Shown here: in pieces, positions 24,243 through 31,407 of the stretch
Position numbering within the stretch: the stretch's first letter is position 1
How the letters are laid out: every line of letters starts with the position of its first letter
Assembly: GCF_016859285.1 (NCBI RefSeq)
Contig: NC_053419.1
Coordinates: 12,552,501-12,616,500, forward strand
Direction: 5' to 3'
Source of the DNA: Xiphias gladius
Lineage: Eukaryota > Chordata > Actinopteri > Istiophoriformes > Xiphiidae
DNA length: 64,000 nt
Position numbers and translations under genes: made by a program
Notes under the pieces: model-generated
What the model was told of the DNA's origin: nothing
The model's input: only the letters and a program-made list of their open reading frames with translations
Database searches by the model: none

Positions 24243-27200
24243 TCACACAGTGAGGAGTGGGTGTCCTGAGAAGAAGTTTTCGGTGCTTCGGCCGGTGGTC
24301 CCGTCGCTTGCTTCCAACCACACTTTGTCTCCCATTTCAGGGGAGCACCGTGTCCCCTGAAGAAAAATGCTGACCTCCCTGATAAACTTTGAAACTCTGC
24401 AGCACCAGCCCATTGTTATGCCACAGGTCCCCGCTTCCTGCACCAACGAAGGACGTCCACAGAAAGCTGAACTGATGACGCGTGTGATCAGGCCCGTCTG
24501 CACGCTATAGTTGTTCTGCTCGTTGTAGACGACCTGACGGAAACGAATGATTTTCTCTGAAGATGGGTTGCACTCGCCCAGGATGACGGAGAAGGCAGAA
24601 TGTGGCTGTGTGGCATTGATTTTTAATGCTGGTGGTCCAGGAAGGCCTCTTGGGCCTGGAGGTCCTACTGGACCTGCAGAGAAAAAAAAAGAACAGATTA
24701 CTTCAAAATGCTCTCCAAACGTACAGTATATCACCGGTGTGTAATTGTCCACATTTTCAGCTTTGAATCTCCAAGATCAGATCAGAATACATTTCTGATC
24801 TGCTGCTAAATATGAACCTTACAGATCACCTGGGACAAGTTTGCTTAGTGTCTTCAGGGTAAAAACTGAAACTTATATGCAATATATTTGCTTTTAAAAT
24901 CCTATTTATGTGTCTTTCTTATTACCTTGTGTTTCTTTTTATATCTTGCCAAAATGCCTTTTTACACACTTTGAATTGCCTTGCTGCTGAAACATGCTAT
25001 ACAAATACCCTTGCCTTGCTTTGCTTTCCTTAATGCTGTTGGCATAACAACATGTACGAGAGTTTTGCACTGATCCCGAATCATGCTGCCACATTCTTGC
25101 TAAAAAAACTCCACGTCTGTAAACACCTCTGGAACATTGTACCCATAGTTCAGCTGGTTGCCAACTACTTTTGTATTTCTAATATTTGAAAACATTTGTT
25201 AAAGCTCATGTGTCTTGGGCCCAGCTGTAAAACCATCTACAAATCTGAGCTGATTAGGCTAAATAGGTTCGTAAAGTCTGGCTGTTTTTGTGCTGAATGT
25301 AAAGTGCTGTGTTACCCTTCTAAATAATGCATTCAGAATGAAGTATTATTACAATTTAGCACCATTATCACATTCTTTGTAAAACCACTTGATAAATAGT
25401 TTGTCAGTATGTGCTTGCATTTGATATTAATTAAACATTCTGAGTTACTTAAAAGATGTTCAGCACTATACACAATGCAGAAAAGGATGAACAGACGGTG
25501 CATAGGATAACTATATAGATTACCTCGTTGTCCTGGAGGCTCTGGCTGTCCAGGGGGTCTGGCTGGCTCGCATCCTGTACATCAAGAAGATGTAGAAATT
25601 AAACATATTCAGCCTCATAATTTAAGGAATTTTTCAAAATGTGCTTTTATCAGTCTCCAGCAAATTGTTTCTTTTGGAGAAAGGACCACCTTCACCAAGA
25701 TGACAAAGTTAAGAACGAGTGTTGTGTGGTTTGAATGTGCACTTTTTAGGGAGGTGTGGCTTAGTTGTGCTCTTTAAATGTGACTACCACTTGTTAGTGT
25801 TTAAAACCGACCTCTGTTTCATCGACTTCGTTGCAGCTATCACCCGGACCTGCAACATCAAACACCACATATGAAGAACGTATTTTATTTAAGTGATTAG
25901 AGAAGAAATAAATACAGCAGATTAAACTCAGAATGAAAAATACAGCGAGTGACAAACGACTGTGAATTTGAGAGTCTTCCCCACGGTCAAAAAGTTTGAC
26001 CCCGTGCTGTTTCACCTGAGTTCTCGGAGCAGGATCTATCCCTCCAGGCTGACAGGTCCAAGCCTCGGACGTCTCTGCAGCGGACAAACGCGTTTCTCCT
26101 TGAGGGGATGAGGAAAACGTTACTGGGGATAGTTTGGATGCCGGTGTTGTCACAGAGGATCTTGGACAAGCTGATTTTGGACAGAGCATTTCTCTGTCTC
26201 ACGGTGAAGACGCCTGGTTTCTCGTACCACAGCCTGAGAATTTCAAATAAGAGGAGAGAAGAAGAGTGTCAGCAGAGACTTTATTTGAAATGCATTTAGT
26301 TTTGTGATAGTGTCCTCAGTCTGCGGCTGACATTTGATATAAATCATAACCTAAAATATGTCAGGACTGGAGGGCGGCAATCATCTGTGGTCGAATGCAA
26401 TCACCTCATGTTGCAGGTGTAAATCAATGCTGCAAAACTAGTATGAAAATCTCTGGTTACTGAGGACCACAACCCAGCTAATATTTAAAGACTTCTTAAA
26501 TATGCAATTATTTGCACTAGGTTGCAGAGATGAATAAATACATCTTTCATTGCCACGCAGACGGGCAGTACAATTTCAAAGCAGTTCTAAAAATCAAAGA
26601 CAAAAGCATTTCAGAGTTTTTTGTGGAGCACCAGAGTTGCTGCTGCTTGCAGCAAATATTTAGATATTTGGCTGAAATAGTGTAGGATGTTATCATGTGT
26701 AATACTCACTAGAGCAAGTGGTACAACTAAGTGCAAATTCACTCTTTTTGAACATTTTTCTGGTTTTCTGGTTGGATAAGTGAAGAAATCTACAATTAAA
26801 GTCTCCACGCCGCCTTTTTGTGTTTTAAGAGTCTAAATCTGACTTGAATAAAATTGAATTTAGATGAAGAGCATAAATTACATGCATTCGTTTATTTATG
26901 CAAAACATGTTTTAATGTAATGCTCAACATTTGACTGGTCTGAAAGGCACACAGACTGCACCTTTTTTGGGTGGGATTGTCTCATTTCTGTAATAAACTT
27001 TTGTCATCAAAGTCCCACATACAGTACTGCACGTATCCACTAACATACTGACCTGTCACCCTGGCGGACCTTCTTGAACTGGTTTGCGATGAGGCAGGCG
27101 AACAGCGGCCCTACACGGCCGCCCCGGACGAACGGTTCTGCCACACCTCCCATCCAGACGTCGATGTTGCTGGGTGTACCGTAGAGCTGCAGCAGCCTTC

Positions 27201-30200: not shown

Positions 30201-31407
30201 GTTAAAATGTGTTTGCTTAACAAGTTTTTTGAGAAAAGGTCTTGAATTGGAGGTTTCATAGTATATTTAAAAAAAAAACAAAAAAAACAACTGCATGTAA
30301 AAGTGTATCTTATGTTTACATTCCCTGAAACAGATTGTGGTACAGAAGTCAAAATACAAGCAATATGAGGAAATCTTGCTTAAAGTTACTTACAGGTTGT
30401 TGCAGACGCTGGTGGCTGTGCGATACCTGTTAAGGTTTGGTGTGGAGGCGCAACTTGGAAGGTGGACTCGAGCCTCACATCCAGTTATTTGGGAAAGCCT
30501 TTGAAGGTCTTCTTTACTCAGCAAATCTGGAAAATGTGAAAGACACATTTCAAGCGTCTTGTCAACTTCATATGTCTAGTTCTTAATTACAGCTTTGAAG
30601 TGCTCCGCTATGCCCACATTATGAAACAGGAAATCTTTGACCCAAAAACCAGGAAAACCAGGGAAAACTGTCACTAAAACTGTGAGCGCTGTGTGTGTTG
30701 TCTTTGTGTGGGAGCTGCATGTCTGACCTGTTGCGTTGAGCGAGCGTTTGTGCACACGATGCACCCTATCGTGCAGCAGACGAAGGGTTTGTGCCATGTA
30801 GTCCGCAGATCTCACAGCTGAGCGTGTGTCACCTCGAGGCTGCTTGAGGAGGCGAAGAGCATCGTGAGGACTCACCACCTCCCGGCGGACTCGCCTCAGA
30901 CTCCTGGAGGAGAAAAAGCCACACAGTTGAACAGTAAAGTCCAAGCTCTGGTCTTTTTTTTGGAGGTTCTGTAATTTTTCCTACAATTACTGAGCTTCAT
31001 ATAAGCAGTGATGAATGGCTTGCGTGCCAAAGAAACAGCCCTTCATTGTACATTTGTGCTGTGTTCATTTAGAAGATAATCCACTGTTTTACTCTGTGAG
31101 ATGAAATAAGCCAGAAAATGGACTCACTCTCTTCTGGAGTACAGGTACGCATCATCCACGATTTTCTTTGCCTCCTCAAAAGAGTGTCGAAGGAAAGGAC
31201 TGCCGAGATATTCTCCTGCAAACAATCAGCAGCACACAACACATTTATCAAAACGATTTGAAATATGAACAAAAAGAAGAAAAAAGAGAAAAGGCTCATA
31301 CATTGGAATTAGAAACATGTCTGCAGTGAAGGATGGAGCCTACCTGCTGGTTTGGAGTGAGCAGGCACCAGGCAGATGCCCATCAGAAGGAGGATAGAGA
31401 AAAGCAT
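24243..31407 (-). CDS. Haem peroxidase (MPO/EPX/LPO class) fused to a collagen-like stem and C1q-like domain
   Basis: Fifteen coding exons join in phase to about 909 residues: 31344-31407, 31128-31215, 30728-30903, 30394-30526, 29753-29879, 29438-29644, 28960-29323, 27997-28157, 27649-27907, 27394-27564, 27053-27290, 26016-26233, 25808-25849, 25524-25574 and 24243-24673. Human MPO has 745. A signal peptide (MLFSILLLMGICLVPAHS) and propeptide are followed by the full peroxidase domain. The distal site is FGQWNDHDVTF (Gln, haem-linking Asp, His). Further landmarks are the catalytic Arg of GDVRVDEN, the proximal His of YRFAHLAIQP, and RGRDHGLPG. After the domain end (LDLSAWRD) come a short acidic linker, a Gly-X-Y run including GPVGPPGPRGLPGPP, and a C1q start (HSAFSVILGE...IIRFRQVVYNEQNNY). 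The middle of the C1q part is out of its expected frame (see findings). The donor after 25808 (GTTTTA) is weak, but it is the one that keeps phase. A secreted or granule oxidase is expected. Confidence 0.9.
24880..25030 (+). mobile_element. LINE 3'-tail fragment
   Basis: It ends with ATGCTATACAAATACCCTTG followed by CCTTGCTTTGC repeats. This is the kind of 3' tail seen on fish LINEs of the L2/Rex groups, with the tail motif tandemly repeated. No coding part is present. It lies in the intron before the C1q exon. Confidence 0.4.
28500..28775. mobile_element. Half-copy of the TGGTAACGCTTTA-type MITE
   Basis: It ends with AAAATAAAGCGTTACCA at about 28759-28775, and its interior matches the element at 9133-9512 (CATCTGTTTATACACCAG...GGGAGTTATGGTT versus ATCTGATTATATACCAG...AGAGAGTTATAGTT). 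The opposite end is not clear. It lies in an intron of the peroxidase. Confidence 0.5.

Follow-up and report, generated by a model that had tools for sequence, protein, structure and literature searches.

The nearest solved relatives of the enzyme part of the gene described here are human-type myeloperoxidase (MPO) and eosinophil peroxidase (EPX), neither of which has collagen or C1q exons. A hallmark of MPO is a methionine, next to the haem-linking glutamate, that forms a sulphonium link to the haem. For the C1q domain of intact fish proteins of this type, the nearest single-chain solved relatives are adiponectin (6u6n, E 3e-25) and collagen X (1gr3, E 3e-23), proteins with long stems and C1q heads that trimerise. 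The closest counterparts of the whole gene are teleost proteins annotated as eosinophil peroxidase or eosinophil peroxidase-like, for example P0002 from Lates calcarifer, P0001 from Centropristis striata, and P0003 from Seriola aureovittata.

We analyzed a 64,000-nucleotide stretch of the swordfish (Xiphias gladius) genome, referred to below as the window, in which one gene has the same exon order as these teleost proteins. Like the teleost proteins that match both the haem peroxidase profile PF03098 and the C1q profile PF00386, to which it is orthologous, it consists of a peroxidase, a collagen stretch, and a C1q exon. In the teleost relatives the C1q domain is complete (88-96 bits), whereas the swordfish window has a broken one, and the product annotated for this gene is a short form. 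Where adiponectin and collagen X have long stems, the window gene has six unbroken Gly-X-Y triplets, and these are placed behind an enzyme.

Gene structure and peroxidase domain

The gene occupies positions 31407 to 24243 on the minus strand and has 15 exons, with GT-AG at every intron. Exons 1-12 (26016..31407, minus strand) are located at 31407-31344, 31215-31128, 30903-30728, and 30526-30394 (exons 1-4); 29879-29753, 29644-29438, 29323-28960, and 28157-27997 (exons 5-8); and 27907-27649, 27564-27394, 27290-27053, and 26233-26016 (exons 9-12). They encode an N-terminal hydrophobic stretch, by eye a putative signal peptide, followed by a complete haem peroxidase, as judged from Pfam, a structure match, and identity to the database protein P0010. 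The PF03098 match is full-length (616 bits, profile positions 1-530 of 530), in agreement with the preliminary description of this DNA, which had reported a complete peroxidase of the MPO/EPX class.

The best solved match is the myeloperoxidase 6bmt (E 1e-219), and the eosinophil peroxidase 8ogi is also among the nearest. When aligned to 6bmt, the segments GQWNDHD, YRFAHLAIQP, and RVDEN of the window protein pair with GQLLDHD, FRYGHTLIQP, and RSSEM, respectively; we take these to contain the distal DHD, the proximal histidine, and the haem-linking glutamate. In the same alignment, the window peroxidase has an asparagine where MPO has the methionine beside the haem-linking glutamate. By its sequence, the protein is an MPO/EPX-class peroxidase that has asparagine in place of the sulphonium methionine of myeloperoxidase proper.

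A tandem copy inside the window was excluded, as tblastn with the peroxidase and with the tail found no second copy of either one within it. Other features of the window are a saposin-like exon at 46597-47049 on the plus strand (PF03489 SapB_2, 34.5 bits); exons of an inositol-phosphatase-like gene at 62545-63441 on the minus strand (PF22669 in two pieces of 41.0 and 23.8 bits, the second below the cut-off); a transposase remnant at 40158-40499 on the plus strand (PF13358 DDE_3, 21.7 bits, under the cut-off of 28.6); and a long open frame at 15179-16339 on the minus strand, which has no Pfam match and presumably resembles the first exon of lysyl oxidase.

The fusion in other teleosts

The preliminary description had left open whether the fusion of a peroxidase to collagen and C1q parts is annotated in other fish. 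It is, widely, and mostly under the name of eosinophil peroxidase or eosinophil peroxidase-like. When the gene is read with the junctions first proposed, it yields 909 residues, and residues 690-909 of this model matched 57 proteins, 50 of which have both PF03098 and PF00386. The tail of a Conger protein matched 116, with both domains present in 79; most of the remaining 37 are collagen-like proteins such as otolins and EMILINs. In all, 148 distinct proteins were retrieved, and 101 of them are fusions with both Pfam domains, the pairing that the preliminary description had proposed to look for across teleosts.

All of the named fusions are from teleosts (two of the 101, P0101 and P0102, have no species name), and the carriers include eels, herrings and anchovies, carps, smelt and pike, and many spiny-rayed fish. 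Among the matches there was no fusion from gar, a tetrapod, or a shark, in searches that reach only relatives sharing short words. The presence of the same two domains in 101 retrieved proteins, from other fish as well as swordfish, rules out chance as the source of the fusion. From these comparisons, we conclude that the peroxidase-collagen-C1q architecture is real, widespread in teleosts, and not new to the sequence databases. Within titles and the openings of abstracts, a range outside which most subscription journals lie, we found no publication that describes it.

A C1q domain is also present in P0105 from Cyprinus carpio, which is named "Myeloid-specific peroxidase"; this places the C1q tail also among the carp counterparts of mpx, the neutrophil marker of zebrafish. 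No C1q-tailed peroxidase from zebrafish itself was among the matches.

Exon 13 and two possible C-terminal endings

The peroxidase is followed by three further exons on the minus strand. The preliminary description had placed them at 25849-25808, 25574-25524, and 24673-24243, all in phase 1, and had read through them from the peroxidase into Gly-X-Y triplets and the start of a C1q domain. All three are present, and joining them in phase 1 is possible; what did not hold is the end of the first one, which makes it 42 nt long. The donor that this version uses at 25808 (TCG|GTTTTA) scores -7.73, compared with 0.92 for a donor four bases upstream, at 25812; on the same donor-site matrix, the 13 remaining introns have donors with scores from -0.25 to 4.65. 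The swordfish database protein P0010, "eosinophil peroxidase [Xiphias gladius]," uses the donor at 25812: exons 1-12 joined to a 38-nt exon 13 (25812..25849) and to exons 14 and 15 reproduce it at 767/767 residues. In addition, the exon-13 peptide (GPGDSCNEVDETE) is absent from nine clean long relatives that have a C1q tail (P0001-P0007, P0074, and P0082), in which the peroxidase runs directly into the collagen stretch and a phase-1 exon 12 meets a phase-1 exon 14. Based on the weak donor, the 38-nt form of P0010, and these nine relatives, the 42-nt version of the linking exon is very probably wrong.

The same observations bear on the protein that the preliminary description had derived from this junction, a 909-residue peroxidase-collagen-C1q chain that is made from a single transcript and trimerises. 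The frame is open across all three tail exons, which favours this model. Against it, the donor at 25808 is weak and P0010 uses the one at 25812, the exon-13 peptide precedes the collagen stretch in 0/9 clean long relatives, and the C1q reading is unmatched past profile position 38. We regard such a product as extremely unlikely.

Inclusion of the 38 nt shifts the reading frame. Exon 14 (25524..25574, 51 nt), which in one frame encodes the collagen-like CEPARPPGQPEPPGQR, is then read in another frame as the acidic tail DASQPDPLDSQSLQDNE, and a TAG at 24667-24665, six bases inside the last exon (24243..24673, 431 nt), ends translation. A candidate poly(A) signal common to both forms, AATAAA, lies at 23729..23734 on the minus strand. 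Another AATAAA is found at 25884-25889 (minus strand) in intron 12, 35 bases ahead of exon 13; if this intron were retained, the protein would end SENSGETARGQTF, so that this AATAAA could mean a third ending or nothing.

The short ending is shared by other fish. The exon-13 peptide is common to 10 database proteins from nine species (Xiphias, Larimichthys, Paralichthys, Pempheris, Trachinotus, Siniperca (twice), Anoplopoma, Notolabrus, and Toxotes), which end at DNEV or one residue later. Of these short proteins, three are annotated as isoform X2 and one as X1; X1 is also the label of five long relatives (P0003, P0004, P0005, P0006, and P0082). In the short tails after exon 13, a glycine is possible at 51/59 positions in the collagen phase versus 8/59 and 1/50 in the other phases; when the shared DNEV is left out, the values are 33/41 versus 8/50 and 1/41. 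The swordfish footprint is the weakest, with 4/6 positions and an unbroken run of 2. Read at the level of sequence, the short tails bear the footprint of a collagen exon translated in another frame.

The peptide itself is conserved to a similar degree as the sequence before it. Its first nine residues, a hand-picked segment, have a mean identity of 80% over 36 species pairs; over all 13 columns the identity is 73% with gaps left out and 65% with gaps counted as mismatches, and for the last 60 residues of the peroxidase it is 64%, about the same as for the whole of exon 13. Exon 13 thus looks constrained like coding sequence, and no more so than the neighbouring end of the peroxidase. These properties bear on the alternative that exon 13 is splicing noise or an artefact of gene prediction and that the C1q-tailed protein is the sole real product in percomorphs. 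The short proteins are mostly computed models, and the submitter models of the Liparis, Caranx, and icefish relatives have trouble in this region, which favours this alternative. An artefact sits poorly, however, with an exon, phase, and ending that are the same in nine species, with the trace of a collagen exon in the other frame, and with peptide conservation close to that of the peroxidase end, and we judge this alternative to be improbable.

A second alternative is that the short and long proteins are different paralogues, one of which has lost its C1q domain. Swordfish does have a second C1q-bearing peroxidase, P0033, whose gene is on another contig and whose C1q domain is complete. However, a tree built from 28 of the 148 proteins places P0033 in a separate clade, and the short and long forms are mixed within one clade that contains well-supported long/short pairs (Seriola/Trachinotus, 98/91; Scophthalmus/Paralichthys, 100/100). 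Moreover, seven predicted proteins (P0008, P0009, P0011, P0012, P0013, P0015, and P0016, of which P0015 lacks the PGVY core) contain both an exon-13-like peptide and a C1q match, and these models, though awkward, place exon 13 and C1q in one gene. Both clean forms from one single species were not found among the retrieved proteins. We therefore regard separate paralogues as a highly unlikely source of the two forms.

In three of the combined models, P0011, P0012, and P0013 (from Pogonophryne, Champsocephalus esox, and Dissostichus), long repeats are predicted for the region from exon 13 to C1q, some of them in another frame; these are perhaps an expanded collagen exon.

From the presence of the same short ending in nine percomorph species, we infer that exon 13 is a frame-switching cassette.

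The swordfish C1q domain and a proposed frame switch

In exon 15, the Gly-X-Y stretch comes to its end and the C1q domain follows. Both parts named in the preliminary description are present, each below its Pfam cut-off: the collagen part, with its six unbroken triplets, scores 14.4 bits against the Pfam collagen cut-off of 27.2, and the open frame of the C1q exon matches PF00386 only over profile positions 1-38 of 127 (23.5 bits, cut-off 23.7). By comparison, four orthologues (P0001, P0002, P0003, and P0006) and the swordfish paralogue P0033 have complete C1q domains, with 88.5-95.9 bits over positions 1-127. Alignment to four relatives shows that ∼13 nt are missing near 24476 and 2 nt near 24339. 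Between these deletions (24339..24476, minus strand) ∼45 codons in the middle of the domain are out of the C1q frame, which accounts for the match ending at position 38, and the first frame then resumes and continues to the usual stop. The out-of-frame middle piece has no Pfam match at E values up to 1 and was recognized through the alignment to relatives. In AlphaFold2 predictions, based on shallow alignments of 9 and 8 sequences, respectively, the mean pLDDT was 37.8 for the window C1q and 81.9 for that of Lates. Taken together, these data indicate that two deletions, if real, would damage the swordfish C1q fold.

When the pieces of the swordfish C1q domain are compared frame by frame, in local alignments that leave out the damaged joints, they are 61-69% identical to seven relatives, whose C1q domains are 59-71% identical among themselves (mean 67%, 21 pairs). 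As the pieces are as similar to the relatives as the relatives are to each other, there is no sign of long neglect, and the deletions may be recent, or an allele, or an error in the assembly. If they were assembly errors or the allele of one individual, swordfish would also make an intact C1q-tailed form. The level of identity, with its lack of any sign of long neglect, speaks for such an origin, as does the sum of the two deletions, 15 nt, with which the frame returns; on the other hand, a loss of 13 nt is, in our judgement, unusual as an assembly error, and P0010, the only swordfish protein retrieved from this gene, is the short form. An unreal pair of deletions is somewhat unlikely on this evidence.

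Our preferred explanation is that the window contains the swordfish copy of a percomorph eosinophil-peroxidase gene in which a 38-nt cassette chooses the C-terminus and in which the C1q domain has been spoiled by two deletions; as judged from sequence comparisons, this is probably correct. In the proposed mechanism, exon 13, whose 38 nt are not a multiple of three, would select the ending. If the exon is skipped, exons 12 and 14 would be joined in the collagen frame, and the peroxidase would carry a C1q head on a short collagen stem. By analogy with other C1q proteins, such heads would trimerise, so that three enzymes would be kept in one complex and directed to C1q targets. If the exon is included, exon 14 would be read in the other frame up to the stop near the start of exon 15, and the product would be a free enzyme that lacks C1q and ends in a short tail. 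A stop downstream of the last exon junction should not trigger nonsense-mediated decay, and because the short-form stop lies past this junction, its mRNA should escape. In swordfish, with its spoiled C1q fold, the short free enzyme would be the only clearly sound product of this gene.

The trimeric, target-binding oxidase that the preliminary description had suggested is, by the same analogy, a reasonable expectation for fish in which the fusion is intact. For the swordfish gene copy it is poorly supported, because the 42-nt junction is used by neither P0010 nor the nine relatives, the annotated product ends before the collagen frame, and the C1q domain is broken. More tentatively, it is possible that percomorphs in general use a conserved 38-nt exon to choose, within one gene, between a trimeric peroxidase aimed at targets by its C1q tail and a free enzyme with a short tail of its own. 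The collagen exon would then be read in two frames, and the aimed form of this gene would be a recent loss in swordfish.

Of more interest than the fusion would be the small exon that appears to decide in which frame the collagen exon is read and which C-terminus the protein receives as a whole. If this switch is true, it would account for the two lengths in which teleost "eosinophil peroxidase" entries are found, and it would mean that a collagen exon has been kept readable in two frames, which is unusual. Fish granulocytes could then pick, at splicing, between a free oxidant-making enzyme and one carried to C1q targets, a choice that would link recognition with oxidant production on the spot and that can be tested.
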